A stretch of DNA of 33,729 nucleotides from IMG/VR virus record IMGVR_UViG_3300037247_000423, positions 1 to 33,729 of that record, one strand, 5' to 3'. This DNA comes from a virus. Within the stretch, counting starts at the first letter, position 1, and the number at the start of each line of letters is the position of its first letter. Positions 4,793-32,370 of this stretch are shown here, one piece after another. The notes under the pieces are model-generated. The model was not told the DNA's origin, made no database searches, and saw only the letters and a program-made list of their open reading frames with translations. The translations under genes and the position numbers were made by a program.

Positions 4793-5402
4793 GAGACACC
4801 CCCCTCGATGAACCTTTTACGCTGGCGTACGCGGAGAACTGTAACCAGCGTGCTGTCTCGTATACTGGATCAAAGCCTGCGTTGTACAGCAGGTTACGCA
4901 GGCTTGTGGGATTACTGGGGTAGGGGCTGTCCGGAAAGGGGGATATGGTTTCTTGCATGAACATAGGCACGAAGCCGGTATTGTTTTCTTTGAAGGTTTC
5001 GCGTTGCGTCGTTACGAATAGCCCTCGATACTTGAGAATACGAAACGCTGCGTTGAAGATTCTCTGCTTGTAGAGCGGCGGGACGGTACCTATGGCGTGG
5101 TCCAAGAATACACAATCTGCCTGCATATCCAGCTTGGATAGTGCATCCGGATTCTTCACGAGCACTTTTGTCAGGACAGTTCGCGATTCAATATTTTGCA
5201 ATCGATTGCAAATATCTTTCAACACCAAATCCGGCGCTGCACTCACAACGAGCATTCGATAGGGGGGCTTGGGCTTGTTGGTACAATGCTTTTCAATCAA
5301 CTCCAGGTTGACCATACGAAGCTCACCACTGAGGGATAGCGATCCCTTCTTGGGCTTTCTCATGGTGGCTCGTTTGTTTATCTGCACTTCCATGCGCGGC
5401 AT
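4782..5402 (-). CDS. unknown protein with Rossmann/methyltransferase-like core
   Basis: 206 residues. ATG at 5402 follows AAAGGAGGAG at a rather long distance; ATG at 5393 is possible. Residues 48-130 alternate strands and helices (MLVVSAAP, DCVFLDHAIG, FRILKYRGLFVTTQRE) like a class I AdoMet-methyltransferase, but no glycine-rich AdoMet loop is evident, so it may be degenerate or have another role. A perfect 16-bp operator palindrome at 5196-5211 lies within the coding sequence. It overlaps terS by 11 bases. Confidence 0.7.
   Translation of the reverse strand: MPRMEVQINKRATMRKPKKGSLSLSGELRMVNLELIEKHCTNKPKPPYRMLVVSAAPDLVLKDICNRLQNIESRTVLTKVLVKNPDALSKLDMQADCVFLDHAIGTVPPLYKQRIFNAAFRILKYRGLFVTTQRETFKENNTGFVPMFMQETISPFPDSPYPSNPTSLRNLLYNAGFDPVYETARWLQFSAYASVKGSSRGVSHAR
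5196..5211. promoter_or_regulatory. 16-bp palindromic operator, copy 2 (intragenic)
   Basis: Perfect palindrome TTGCAATCGATTGCAA, with the symmetry extending into flanking AT-rich bases. It is inside a coding region, far from a visible promoter, so a role as roadblock, stoperator or chromosome-organising site is as likely as simple promoter repression. Confidence 0.65.
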
Positions 5403-9177: not shown

Positions 9178-9193
9178 TTGCAATCGATTGCAA
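9178..9193. promoter_or_regulatory. 16-bp palindromic operator, copy 3
   Basis: Perfect TTGCAATCGATTGCAA in the 114-base gap between the RuvC-like gene and the Lys-rich protein gene, upstream of the extended -10 promoter. Its position would suit activation or upstream repression of that promoter. Confidence 0.7.
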
Positions 9194-13008: not shown

Positions 13009-13565
13009 TACATGTGGGCTTCCCTATAAGCTGACACTACCTCATGCAAACGATCCACCGTATCCGTATGCGTCTGCTTGAGGTACGTGTACTCGTTCTC
13101 GTGCTCAATCAGAATTCTTGCAATCGATTGCAATTCTCCTTTCGTATAATGCTTATGTCCCTTCACCGTATCGGTGGCGACAGGCTCCGGGATGATGCCC
13201 TGTTGAATCCACCGCTTCAGCGTAAGCAGAGCTTTGCCTAACGCATCCGCAGCTTCAGGAATAGAGTATACCTCGTGTACCTGCACGATATCTCCGTCAT
13301 CCAAATGCACGATGACTTCTTTGTCTATTCCTTCCTTGAGAAGCCTGCCCTCGGCAGCGAGATCAGAATCAACTTTGTCACGACGACTGTAGTAATGCGC
13401 GCGGGCAGCACGACGCTGCTCCTCGGCATAGTCTACGTCTGTATCGTAAAGCTCCCGTCGTTGGTCGTTCCTATTCTCAGAAGCTTGAGCCGTTTCGAGT
13501 TGTCGCTGGCCTCTCGTTTTAGCTCCCCTGCGTCTCGACGTTGAACGCCCTTGTCGGGATGCCAT
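13008..13565 (-). CDS. MerR-like helix-turn-helix DNA-binding protein
   Basis: 185 residues. ATG 13565 is chosen because GGAGG lies 7 bases upstream, although the gene then overlaps the SF2 helicase by 133 bases. Residues 99-150 look like a MerR-type winged helix: VYSIPEAADALGKALLTLKRWIQQGIIPEP, then GHKHYTKGELQSIARIL. A coiled coil follows (152-180), usual for dimerisation. The first 40 residues are Arg/Ser/Gln-rich. Operator copy 4 lies inside the coding region, encoding LQSIA. It is a candidate regulator for the palindromes, but MerR operators are usually spaced differently. Confidence 0.78.
   Translation of the reverse strand: MASRQGRSTSRRRGAKTRGQRQLETAQASENRNDQRRELYDTDVDYAEEQRRAARAHYYSRRDKVDSDLAAEGRLLKEGIDKEVIVHLDDGDIVQVHEVYSIPEAADALGKALLTLKRWIQQGIIPEPVATDTVKGHKHYTKGELQSIARILIEHENEYTYLKQTHTDTVDRLHEVVSAYREAHM
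13118..13133. promoter_or_regulatory. 16-bp palindromic operator, copy 4 (intragenic)
   Basis: Perfect TTGCAATCGATTGCAA within the MerR-like gene; GAATT/TTC bases extend the symmetry slightly. No promoter was seen next to it. Confidence 0.65.
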
Positions 13566-25382: not shown

Positions 25383-25585
25383 ATCTCGCCCACGAAACCG
25401 TGAATCAACGCCTCGCTGACCGGACTGTGATGGTAGTTGCCGTGGCTGTCTTTGCACATCATTGCATCACGCACCATGGTCTCGGCATTCTCGCGCAACG
25501 CTTCAACTGTAATGTTAAGCGATTTAGCGACTTCCTCCTCAGTCATGGGGATCCCACGCAAGCTGTAGTAGAGCGGCGCAGTCAC
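25373..25585 (-). CDS. small helical protein with possible HTH
   Basis: 70 residues. GTG 25585 overlaps the upstream stop as GTGA; ATG at 25546 is an alternative. GIPMTEEEVAKSLNITVEALRENAETMV reads like a helix-turn-helix. The C terminus has KDSHGNYHHSPVSEALIHGF. No family recognised. Confidence 0.6.
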   Translation of the reverse strand: MTAPLYYSLRGIPMTEEEVAKSLNITVEALRENAETMVRDAMMCKDSHGNYHHSPVSEALIHGFVGEICH

Positions 25586-25932
25586 GACCGGTCCTGCTCG
25601 TACAGTGGGCGCATCATCAGGGCAATCGCTTCGGCGCGCTCGCCCCACGGCACGACGCCTTCTTTGCGGCACTCGTTCATCCACTGCACTTCGAACTCGC
25701 GACCGTGCTCGTAGCTGTCGAAGTCTCTCAATGCCATGCACGGCGCTGTGACGTACTGCCCGTCGCTGGTGTAGAGATCGATCTGCCACCACTTCTTGTC
25801 GGACTCGTAGATGATCTCGCTGGCGCGTTCCACGACGGCATCACCGAACTGCATCAGCGGAAACTCATCGCTGTGCATGCTCTTGAGCGTACCCGCTTCA
25901 GAGATCTCAATGACGTGTTCTTTTGCCTTCAT
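25582..25932 (-). CDS. hypothetical protein downstream of the structured RNA
   Basis: 116 residues. ATG 25932 is chosen because GGAGGT lies 7-8 bases upstream; that site overlaps an earlier ATG at 25947. Mixed alpha/beta with many aromatics (KKWWQIDLYTSDGQYVTAPCMAL, HGREFEVQWMNECRKEGVVPWG). No family recognised. It starts only about 23 bases after the closing helix of the candidate RNA at 25955-26268, so that RNA could be its leader. Confidence 0.72.
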   Translation of the reverse strand: MKAKEHVIEISEAGTLKSMHSDEFPLMQFGDAVVERASEIIYESDKKWWQIDLYTSDGQYVTAPCMALRDFDSYEHGREFEVQWMNECRKEGVVPWGERAEAIALMMRPLYEQDRS

Positions 25933-25954
25933 GTTATGTACCTCCATTTTCGTA

Positions 25955-26268
25955 TGATCAAAAGGGACCGCTGTCCTACCTTACTTGCTGCCTACGTTCC
26001 GGCTCAGCAGCTTTCAACCACCCTTCCCTGACTGTAACTACCGGGCTACCATTGGCCTCATATTTCAGAGTCCCCGGTCCTCGGACAGCAGTCCCTTTTG
26101 ATCACAAAAATGAAACACAGAGGGCGAGAGGGTCACACTGGGGGAGCGGGACTGCTCTGCTTTAATCGGGGGGATTACCCTCCGTGTTTCGAAAACTGGA
26201 CTCTCAGGGATTTTGACCGGGGGTACAGTCACGCGATGGCTGAAATCGAGCCTACCCTGAGAGTCCAG
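25955..26268 (-). ncRNA. candidate structured RNA of three large consecutive stem-loops
   Basis: The 340-base gap 25933-26273 has no convincing gene. On the minus strand three stems follow one another. P1: 26255-26268 with 26196-26209, 14 perfect pairs. P2: 26178-26190 with 26112-26124, 13 pairs. P3: 26083-26104 with 25955-25976, 22 pairs. Linkers are 5 and 7 bases. The single non-Watson-Crick position in P2 and in P3 is G.U on the minus strand but A.C on the plus strand, so the structure belongs to minus-strand RNA. Competing pairings exist: 26087-26095 with 26148-26156, and 26072-26079 with 26215-26222. It may be a free RNA or a riboswitch-like leader for the gene at 25932. No known family recognised. 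Confidence 0.6.
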
Positions 26269-26273
26269 AACCT

Positions 26274-26480
26274 TCAAAACGTGAGCTTGTGGTCTTGCCC
26301 CGTAGCGAGGGGCGGCTTATAGAAGTCGTCCTTACGGCTACGTTGCATGCCGCCGCCAAGCACGATCTCGATGTGCTGAGTAGCTTTCTCGCACTGATCG
26401 CCTCGGAAGCCTTGCGCGTCCAAAGTCACGTTCCCGGCCGGGGAGATATCCACTACGATTTGCTGTTGCTGTTTCGTCAT
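26274..26480 (-). CDS. DUF2997-like protein
   Basis: 68 residues, ATG 26480 with AAGGAG upstream. The pattern IVVDISPAGNVTLDAQGFRGDQCEKATQHIE...LGG matches what I know of DUF2997: a short beta hairpin with I.PdG and G..G..C motifs, then a helix ending in LGG. In cyanobacteria and other bacteria DUF2997 genes sit beside DUF1257/Ycf35 genes, as here. Function unknown. It is 9 bases after the DUF1257-like gene. Confidence 0.75.
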   Translation of the reverse strand: MTKQQQQIVVDISPAGNVTLDAQGFRGDQCEKATQHIEIVLGGGMQRSRKDDFYKPPLATGQDHKLTF

Positions 26481-27630: not shown

Positions 27631-29322
27631 CTAATGTACCTGCTCGTCGGAAGAACCGCGACGATGATGCACGCGAACACGAGCGCCTTTCTTCGGCTCA
27701 ACCGTGTCCTCCTGAAAGTCATCGTCATACACCTTGCTGGCAGGCCGCGCGTTCTCGCGTGCCCAAAGCGTCATCATCTGAATCTGATAACCGTACGCCT
27801 TGCTCAGCGGAGTCATCTCCTTCAGTGACGCAATGATGTGGTGCATCTCCAACTCTTCATCGGCATCGAATGCATTGATCAAGGCGTCCTTCAACGAAGT
27901 CTCGATCTCCGCACCGACGTAGGCTTTACTCGCCCCAACGAACTTGGCGTAATCCTTCTTGCTGAAATCCGCGATGTCGTAGCCGCGCTTCCGCAGATGA
28001 ATCTCCAAGATCTGTTTGCGCTCATCACCCGCTGGTAGACGCGTAGCGAATATTTCATCGAACCGGCCCCGCCTTAACAACTCAGGAGGAAGACCATCGA
28101 TGTTGTTGGCTGTGACCATGGTGAACACAGGGGTCTTGTTGTCCTGCAACCACGTCAGGAAGGTGCCCAGCACACGGCTGCCGGTGCCGGAGTCGCCACT
28201 GCCGCCCATACCACCTAGACCCTTGTCGATCTCGTCGCAGAAGAGCACACAGGGGGCCATAGCCTCCACCATGCGCAGCGCAGTACGAATGCGTTCCTCC
28301 GATGCACCAACGAGTGACTGAAACACCTTACCGAAGTCCAACCGGATACAAGGTACGCCAAGCGTAGCGGCGACAGCTTTCGCCACCAGCGACTTACCGG
28401 TACCAGGAGGCCCGACGAACACCATGCCCTTCGGAGCTTCGATACCGAACTCGGCCGCTTCCTCGGTGTAACAATTTTTCCGCTTCTCAACCCACTCTTT
28501 CAGAAGCTCCATGCCGCCAACGTCTGCCATGTCCTCGGTGTGGTAAAGCTCCAGGAGATCATTCTTGTTGACGATCTCCGTCTTGCCTTTGTTGAGTCCT
28601 TCGATGATCTCGTCAGGACCGACAGCTTCGTCGGAATCCTCGACTGCATTCTGCACGATGGCGAGCGAAGAAAACATTTCGAATCCTTCCTTGGTCATAC
28701 CCGCACCGGCAAAACAAATCTTGTCGTAGTCATCCTTGTCCACAGCGAGAATGCTGTCATCAACACCATCCAGAACAGCACCGAGTGCTTTCTTCAATTC
28801 CTTGTGTCCTGGCGTATCGAAATACAGTGTCACGATTGAACTGGAGACAGCTTCGGGCATCGGCACATTCGGTGTAACGAACACAACGCGAATATTACTC
28901 GGCGGCAACACATGTGCGTACTGCTGAATCATGTGCACGACGGCAGGCTCTTCCAGCCAGTAAAGAGGATTCACGTACACGAAGAAGTGTAACTGCTCAT
29001 CGTCCTCCGATGACTCGGGCTTCTTCTTGACCAGTTCCTTCATCGGCTCAGTGATGGCCCCATTGAAGACTAGCTGACCATCACCCTCGACGTTGGTTTT
29101 GAACATCGTGTTCGCATCGAATTCGCGGAACCCATTGATGATGTCCCACTCTCGATATTGATTAGCTTCCACGAGCACAGTCTTACGGAGTGCCAGGGTA
29201 GCCCTGACAACTTCGTCGGTGCGTACGTGGATGACAGACGCGCCCGAATCCGAGTACACCATCAGCTTGTGGCTGAAGGCGTCCTCCGAGTGGCGATTCA
29301 ATAACTCTTGAGTTACGCGCAT
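27631..29322 (-). CDS. Ycf46-like AAA+ ATPase
   Basis: 563 residues, ATG 29322 with GGAGG about 11 bases upstream. The N-terminal half (1-260) is a degenerate ATPase-like domain, as in Ycf46. The C-terminal AAA+ module starts DMADVGGMELLKEWVEKR and has Walker A GPPGTGKS (304-311), KVFQSLVGASEERIR, Walker B LFCDEID (360-366), the segment GDSGTGSRVLGTFLTWLQ, sensor 1 TANN (404-407) and RRGRFDEIF (417-425). These follow plastid/cyanobacterial Ycf46 closely, rather than FtsH or Cdc48. AAA+ proteins remodel other proteins with ATP; the substrate here is unknown. The C terminus is basic. Confidence 0.85.
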   Translation of the reverse strand: MRVTQELLNRHSEDAFSHKLMVYSDSGASVIHVRTDEVVRATLALRKTVLVEANQYREWDIINGFREFDANTMFKTNVEGDGQLVFNGAITEPMKELVKKKPESSEDDEQLHFFVYVNPLYWLEEPAVVHMIQQYAHVLPPSNIRVVFVTPNVPMPEAVSSSIVTLYFDTPGHKELKKALGAVLDGVDDSILAVDKDDYDKICFAGAGMTKEGFEMFSSLAIVQNAVEDSDEAVGPDEIIEGLNKGKTEIVNKNDLLELYHTEDMADVGGMELLKEWVEKRKNCYTEEAAEFGIEAPKGMVFVGPPGTGKSLVAKAVAATLGVPCIRLDFGKVFQSLVGASEERIRTALRMVEAMAPCVLFCDEIDKGLGGMGGSGDSGTGSRVLGTFLTWLQDNKTPVFTMVTANNIDGLPPELLRRGRFDEIFATRLPAGDERKQILEIHLRKRGYDIADFSKKDYAKFVGASKAYVGAEIETSLKDALINAFDADEELEMHHIIASLKEMTPLSKAYGYQIQMMTLWARENARPASKVYDDDFQEDTVEPKKGARVRVHHRRGSSDEQVH

Positions 29323-29423: not shown

Positions 29424-29684
29424 TCAGCCTACAGATGCCTGGGATAGCTTAGGCTCCGGATGCCCTGGTGTGGGCCTAGCCACAGAGCGGTTAGCAGCCA
29501 TGAAACCAAGCTCCATGTAATCGCGGGCAATTGCTATCCACCGCTTGTCATAAGCCCCGGCTGTGTTCAGTCCATCCAGCATAGCGAGCACTTCTTGTTC
29601 TTTGCTCTTCAGTATATTCATCACCGCGATTTCATCTTGCTCCAACTCGCGGTACCCAGTGATTAAACGATGTTGATTTTCCAC
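29424..29684 (-). CDS. Acb2-like cyclic-nucleotide sponge (anti-CBASS), DUF7681-type
   Basis: 86 residues; GTG 29684 follows the previous stop directly, with GGAG 8 bases upstream. The pattern QHRLITGYRELEQDEIAVMN, then DKRWIAIARDYMELGFMAANRSVARP matches my knowledge of the small helical Acb2/DUF7681 family (HR.I.GYReLsqeEI..MN; RW.aIa...lq.GFMal.RaVa.P). Acb2 proteins form hexamers that bind cyclic di- and trinucleotides and so block CBASS defence. The C-terminal 12 residues after RPTPG are extra. It lies in a small-gene cluster between lysis and replication genes, a usual place for anti-defence genes. Not confirmed by search. Confidence 0.75.
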   Translation of the reverse strand: MENQHRLITGYRELEQDEIAVMNILKSKEQEVLAMLDGLNTAGAYDKRWIAIARDYMELGFMAANRSVARPTPGHPEPKLSQASVG

Positions 29685-32354: not shown

Positions 32355-32370
32355 TTGCAATCAATTGCAA
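32355..32370. promoter_or_regulatory. 16-bp palindromic operator, copy 6
   Basis: TTGCAATCAATTGCAA, one base from the perfect palindrome, flanked by T and AAA. It lies between the stop of the secreted protein gene and its terminator. Confidence 0.6.

Follow-up and report, generated by a model that had tools for sequence, protein, structure and literature searches.

The locus examined here raises the question of what occupies the 341-base gap between two genes of a phage gene cluster, that is, whether it harbors a structured RNA and, if so, which role such an RNA might play. The sequence analysed (hereafter, the window) is the whole 33.7 kb IMG/VR record IMGVR_UViG_3300037247_000423, belonging to an uncultured virus and probably covering only part of a longer phage genome. 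As a rule, structured RNAs of phages are discovered through the conservation of their sequence; in the case described below, position and stem architecture recur without sequence, a pattern that is missed by covariance-based searches.

Genomic context of the intergenic element

The minus strand carries nearly all the genes of the window. The cluster embedding the gap has the order AAA ATPase (27631-29322), an unknown gene, DUF1257, DUF2997, the gap, and p25585; beyond p25585, further along, there are a replication initiator-like gene, DnaB, and a DNA polymerase gene. The assignment of the upstream gene to DUF2997 in the first-pass annotation agreed with the Pfam search, and the downstream gene belongs to a family of unknown function. 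The three features are the following:

26274..26480, minus strand: upstream gene, DUF2997 protein of 68 aa (Pfam PF11211, E 9e-10)
25933..26273, minus strand (RNA sense): whole intergenic element, from the DUF2997 stop to the p25585 ATG, 341 bases, fold z-score -5.97
25582..25932, minus strand: downstream gene p25585, 116 aa (PHROG 38408), with a GGAGG about 10 nt before the ATG

The p25585 family (PHROG 38408) is widespread in phages. The predicted structure of the protein (pLDDT 85) consists of a small beta sheet followed by two helices; the comparison of this model with solved structures gave no significant match, and its weak matches were to integrase/AP2-type DNA-binding domains. The window also harbors a gene for an Acb2/Tad1 hairpin-domain protein (29424-29684; PF24729, E 7e-16), a family of cyclic-nucleotide sponges. 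No tRNA gene was found in the 33.7 kb of the window, which covers part of the phage genome.

Three tandem hairpins on the minus strand

Three tandem hairpins of 14, 13, and 22 pairs take up almost the entire gap. All the inverted repeats previously proposed were recovered at their coordinates, together with the linkers of 5 and 7 nt between them, the 23 nt separating the end of P3 from the ATG at 25932, and the single irregular pair of P2 and of P3, which is G.U on the minus strand. The arms and loops are as follows:

26255..26268, minus strand: P1 5' arm, CTGGACTCTCAGGG, 14 out of 14 positions paired
26210..26254, minus strand: P1 loop, 45 nt, complementary in co-linear order to the P3 loop
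26196..26209, minus strand: P1 3' arm, CCCTGAGAGTCCAG, pairing with the P1 5' arm
26178..26190, minus strand: P2 5' arm, 12 out of 13 pairs plus one G.U
26112..26124, minus strand: P2 3' arm, the P2 loop being of 53 nt
26083..26104, minus strand: P3 5' arm, TGATCAAAAGGGACTGCTGTCC, 21 out of 22 pairs plus one G.U
25977..26082, minus strand: P3 loop, 106 nt
25955..25976, minus strand: P3 3' arm, pairing with the P3 5' arm

The minus strand folds with an energy of -147 kcal/mol, compared to -114 kcal/mol in shuffled sequences (z-score -5.97; none of the 100 shuffles was as good), and the plus strand gave a weaker value (z-score -3.26), in agreement with the earlier proposal of a structured RNA transcribed from the minus strand. 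Moreover, helices of at least 12 matched pairs appeared in only 24 out of 2000 dinucleotide shuffles of the gap, the longest being of 14, whereas the real gap holds matched-pair helices of 21, 14, and 12 in tandem; other inverted repeats of similar length occur elsewhere in the window, but they are scattered.

The two G.U pairs had been taken as the mark of selection on minus-strand RNA. They are indeed present, but alone they are weak evidence, since such an outcome is expected by chance about once in four times. Pooling the stem mismatches of all the elements found at this position (see below) and reading them on the coding-sense strand, we counted nine G.U and three A.C (p = 0.07; strand-symmetric search, with L008 and L009 sharing one A.C), which would modestly favor RNA over DNA. 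This tally bears on the possibility that the hairpins act at the DNA level as single-stranded structures, e.g., to prime lagging-strand synthesis or to signal replication or recombination close to the replication genes. In its favor are the likeness of tandem hairpins to G4-type priming sites and the position of the genes for the replication initiator-like protein, DnaB, and DNA polymerase, 2-7 kb downstream; against it, there is no GC-skew turn at 26 kb, no iterons were observed, the wobble pairs favor the coding-sense strand, and the minus strand folds better than the plus one. We therefore consider a DNA-level element very unlikely.

A further possibility is that the gap is translated and that the stems are incidental or regulatory. 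A 70-codon frame with a TTG start (26277-26065) overlaps the DUF2997 stop as TTGA and spans P1, P2, and part of P3; its codon score (0.148) is comparable to those of the lower-scoring real genes, and 1.4% of the open stretches in shuffles score at least as high. On the other hand, no homologue of its product was retrieved from phages, Pfam, or PHROGs, no ribosome-binding site was seen, and sense open stretches of at least 65 codons appeared in 46% of the shuffles. Furthermore, the frame does not explain P3, because it ends within the P3 loop. That it represents a gene is thus unlikely, and a small gene accounting for the whole element appears highly improbable.

Complementarity between the P1 and P3 loops

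Most of the P1 loop can pair in antiparallel order with the P3 loop, through four segments of each, a feature that the first reading of this sequence had missed:

26215..26222, minus strand: P1-loop segment CCCCGGUC, complementary to the P3-loop segment GACCGGGG at 26072..26079, minus strand
26224..26231, minus strand: P1-loop segment UGACUGUA, complementary to the P3-loop segment UACAGUCA at 26029..26036, minus strand, as UGACUGU(A)/(U)ACAGUCA
26235..26245, minus strand: P1-loop segment UUUCAGCCAUC, complementary to the P3-loop segment GGUGGUUGAAA at 26012..26022, minus strand
26247..26252, minus strand: P1-loop segment GGCUCG, complementary to the P3-loop segment UGAGCC at 26001..26006, minus strand

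The best duplex between the two loops, computed on this one sequence, comprises 35 pairs (-45.6 kcal/mol; z-score -4.2; 3 out of 2000 shuffles), and the same test revealed nothing between the P1 and P2 or the P2 and P3 loops. Considering only two perfect co-linear helices, a comparable result was obtained in 1 out of 3000 shuffles for the P1 and P3 loops and in 5 out of 1000 for any pair of loops; since three loop pairs were compared, the significance to be adopted is about 0.005. For the two 8-bp segments, the energy needed to open them is 14.0 kcal/mol, compared to the 25.4 kcal/mol gained when the two duplexes form; therefore, a pseudoknot is energetically possible. Steric constraints may prevent all 35 pairs from forming at once as long as P1 and P3 are closed, and an alternative conformation in place of the pseudoknot is equally possible.

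Two alternative pairings had previously been put forward as the basis of a structural switch. The 9-bp pairing between 26087-26095 and 26148-26156 is real, but about 0.2 pairings of this kind are expected by chance in such a sequence according to our own estimate; that between 26072-26079 and 26215-26222 is real as well, but it is part of the larger complementarity of the P1 and P3 loops, which is unlikely to have arisen by chance. Hence, switching did not find support: one pairing does not exceed the chance expectation, and a tertiary contact between the loops accounts for the other at least as well.

Search for homologues and known RNA families

No match at the gathering threshold was obtained in the window with the covariance models of Rfam 15 (including GOLLD, ROOL, HEARO, OLE, and riboswitches), the best sub-threshold match of the region being RNase MRP on the plus strand, with 11 bits vs. 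a threshold of 50. No homologue of the element was retrieved by blastn from phages and plasmids, and no match by probing IMG/VR with two exact stem patterns; likewise, no relative emerged from nhmmer and blastn over 99 locus sequences, nor from the whole records of nine related phages, although the records closest to the window may have been missing from the collections covered. Neither an intrinsic terminator nor a promoter-like site was called in the element (25.9-26.3 kb); P1 is followed by UUUU and P2 by UUUUU, but their loops are of 45-53 nt, unlike the short loop of the GC-rich hairpin that precedes a T run in terminators.

The loci of the relatives were found through alignments of the AAA and DUF1257 proteins. 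The use of the neighboring proteins as bait did not retrieve loci, the p25585 alignment added almost exclusively records that were already known, and bacterial genomes yielded distant AAA proteins only.

The DUF2997-p25585 slot in other phages

The gene cluster is widespread, being present in the Pseudomonas SM1 group, in Rhizobium phages L338C, P11VFA, and RHph_I4, in Agrobacterium phage JP1, in the Rhodobacter RcTiptonus group, in Aeromonas phage HJ05, and in many uncultured phages. Across 52 distinct loci, DUF2997 and p25585 are usually a few bases apart. In some of them the gap is occupied by genes, encoding a response regulator (L053), an HNH endonuclease (L026), an RNase H (L010), or Acb2 (L037); in the latter, the Acb2 gene occupies the same slot as the RNA element of the window.

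A different structured sequence occupies this slot in about six other lineages (phages of Rhizobium and Rhodobacter and uncultured ones). Structured noncoding slots were found in Rhizobium phages RHph_I4 and L338C (L008 and L009, respectively; 150 nt), in Rhodobacter phage RcTiptonus (L012; 346 nt), in the uncultured L004 (218 nt), L026, L057, and L074, and in L062. These elements (L008/L009, L012, L026, L057, L074, and L004) resemble that of the window in sharing the slot, a long stem around a folded loop, and the sense strand. The main stem is of 22-26 bp in the window (P3), 25 in L057, 24 in L074, 23 in L008/L009, 21 in L012, and 18 in L026, and encloses in all of them a loop of 59-124 nt; L004 (stem of 16 bp, loop of 41) and L062 (a short stem only) fit this common size poorly. 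Other gaps were not counted: in L053 the structured gaps, as well as several of those that follow p25585, have the appearance of ordinary terminators, and the gaps of L037, L041, L053, L068, and L097 are coding or mixed.

L057 and L074 have three tandem hairpins each, as in the window. Accordingly, the earlier statement that no family with this layout is known holds as far as Rfam is concerned, but the tandem layout is not unique, since L057, L074, and L012 have comparable hairpin arrays. The RNA usually lies directly upstream of the p25585 homologue; in L012, L057, and L074, other genes are interposed between DUF2997 and the RNA, which still adjoins p25585, the proteins adjoining it in these three loci not being clearly of one family. 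No sequence similarity was detectable among the slot elements, or between them and that of the window, except for that of L008 and L009 with each other. The loop-loop complementarity is not a common feature either, being weak in L057 (17 out of 500) and absent in L004 and L012.

Stems of at least 14 pairs are concentrated in the slot, with 11 in 12.2 kb vs. 28 in 734 kb elsewhere (p 2.5e-11), some of the 11 lying within genes. Considering noncoding sequence only, there are 4 in 2.9 kb of slot, one of which is supplied by the window, vs. 3 in 69.7 kb (p 4.7e-5); these figures carry some selection (window, cut-offs), because the slot members were partly chosen by inspection. The z-score of the 200 nt upstream of p25585 did not separate the 52 loci from the controls (3 out of 52 below -3, compared to 0 and 3), because most slots are empty.

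The elements of RHph_I4 and L338C, which are about 72% identical, allow pairing to be compared between two sequences. In the main stem, two positions have changed on both sides with pairing kept, and both side arms have wholly different sequences and are still paired. The element of P11VFA is the same as that of L338C, and in the Rhodobacter group a single change at a paired position, from G.U to G.C, keeps the pairing. The compensation between L008 and L009, as a two-sequence analogue, would be evidence for selection on pairing in these elements, not on the window's own RNA.

An element born by chance, or unselected debris of a palindromic insertion, would agree with the lack of any homologue of its sequence; the fold, helix, and loop-loop statistics, the positional enrichment of stems in the relatives, and the compensation in L008/L009 stand against it and make it extremely improbable. 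Overall, these data suggest that the stretch is a real structured RNA element of recurrent architecture, under selection. What is new here is an architecture and a position that recur without a shared sequence, in an element belonging to no Rfam family; a search of the open literature, although not exhaustive, did not find such a recurrence described.

Possible roles of the element

In principle, we can depict the following scenarios for the role of this RNA:

i. A processing site. The element would be transcribed together with the DUF2997-p25585 gene cluster, and the host RNase III, or a similar enzyme, would recognize the double-stranded character of the long stems while the transcript is being made. 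A cut in the stems would separate the upstream messenger from that of p25585 and free the loop domain as a separate small RNA, whose role is conjectural; in the window, the pairing of the P1 and P3 loops would perhaps keep this domain compact. The slot is a variable one, in which several related lineages keep an RNA with one stem of about 18-25 bp (about two helical turns) around a folded loop domain of 60-125 nt.

ii. A trans-acting accessory, anti-defence, or host-takeover RNA (a decoy or sponge), whose stems protect the loop domain or present it to a host protein.

iii. A cis-acting leader, whose pseudoknotted fold controls the translation of p25585.

RNase III is the general double-strand-specific cutter in bacteria, and a two-turn stem, the position before p25585, and a free sequence are what such a cutter needs; therefore, processing is the scenario that we favor, as a plausible one that falls somewhat short of probable. 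It would explain how position and stem length are kept without sequence, because stems that need only double-strandedness can change their sequence. No intrinsic terminator was called in the element, which also speaks for processing, and, with respect to the stem of about 20 bp or more adopted as the criterion for an RNase III site, P3 has 22-26 pairs and the relatives have 18-25, cleavage being a prediction. Classical phage RNase III hairpins have small loops, which counts against processing given the approximately 60-125 nt found here. Moreover, most of the phages bearing the cluster lack a slot element, so that cutting is dispensable there, and a mere cutting site needs no loop-loop fold.

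RNase III cleaves double-helical structures in transcripts, phage T7 employs it on transcripts of its own, and the R1.1 hairpin of this phage is the standard substrate (PMC4858673, PMC6121014). As with R1.1-type and pre-rRNA processing stems, the genes of a polycistronic transcript would be separated here by long double-stranded stems; the stem of the element is near two helical turns, as in RNase III hairpins, and encloses a large domain, as in pre-rRNA. The element differs from the T7 sites in that their loop domain is far smaller and in that the P1 and P3 loops of the window are mutually complementary, and its cleavage is predicted. The element also resembles the large ornate RNAs GOLLD and ROOL (Rfam; PMC12286853), which are likewise noncoding and structured RNAs encoded by phages, contain pseudoknots or kissing loops, and have no known function. 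Their size is about 600-800 nt, their sequence is conserved, and they are frequently close to tRNA islands, whereas the element is of about 340 nt, with no tRNA in the window, no Rfam match, and no conserved sequence among the syntenic elements. By its nature, the element is intermediate between the structured RNAs of phages whose function is unknown and the stems processed by RNase III.

The second scenario draws on the company that the element keeps: the same slot carries Acb2 (L037), a response regulator (L053), an HNH endonuclease (L026), and an RNase H (L010), an Acb2 gene is nearby in the window, and the sequence turns over fast with the shape kept, in an intricate loop-loop fold. Nevertheless, neither a promoter-like nor a terminator-like site was called for the element itself, no target is known, and in most lineages the RNA sits directly upstream of p25585 instead of freely within the slot; we regard a trans-acting RNA as possible, although rather unlikely. 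In a broader version, which we consider quite unlikely, a fixed slot of many large siphophages would host rapidly changing, interchangeable trans-acting RNAs defined by architecture and not by sequence, as cargo alongside protein counter-defence genes such as Acb2. The defining architecture would be a two-turn stem that presents a folded domain of 60-125 nt, locked in the window by the loop-loop pseudoknot.

A leader, in turn, might act through the pairing of the P1-loop segment UGUACCCCC with GGAGGUACA, the ribosome-binding site of p25585. Eight out of nine pairs can form between these two while UGUACCCCC is free of the P3 loop, the end of P3 is 11 nt from the GGAGG that follows it, and the RNA stays next to p25585 in L012, L057, and L074 despite the genes after DUF2997. 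However, this anti-SD match, noticed after the fact, has a chance of about 3% at such length (own estimate), the predicted fold leaves the SD free, a leader is lacking in most p25585 genes, and neither a ligand nor a conserved aptamer emerged; a leader function is therefore unlikely.

If expressed, these elements would add a phage RNA class that can be found by synteny; if they are plain processing sites, they would provide a clean natural series for the substrate needs of RNase III. Three of the phages carrying them, Rhodobacter RcTiptonus and Rhizobium L338C and RHph_I4, are cultured with their hosts, which makes direct testing possible.

Other features of the window and of its relatives

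In L077 (7673-10641), the distance between DUF1257 and DUF2997 is about 2.3 kb, unlike in the other relatives. The AAA ATPase match spans about 2.4-2.5 kb, and not 1.7 kb, in L006 (244-2649) and L059 (6001-8475); in L006, about 0.8 kb separates the part of the match covering residues 1-307 from that covering residues 308-530, which suggests an intein or another insertion in the Walker region of this gene.

Lastly, a 16-bp palindrome, TTGCAATCGATTGCAA, is present in exact form at 5196-5211, 9178-9193, and 13118-13133 of the window, about 4 kb apart, and with one mismatch at 75-90 and 32355-32370. The palindromes of the relatives have fixed TTGCAA arms and a changing palindromic core (TTGCAAACGTTTGCAA in L010, TTGCAACYGGTTGCAA in L011, and TTGCAACCAGTTGCAA in L044). 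These palindromes look like dispersed operator, stoperator, or centromere sites, and the core resembles LacI/PurR-type operators.
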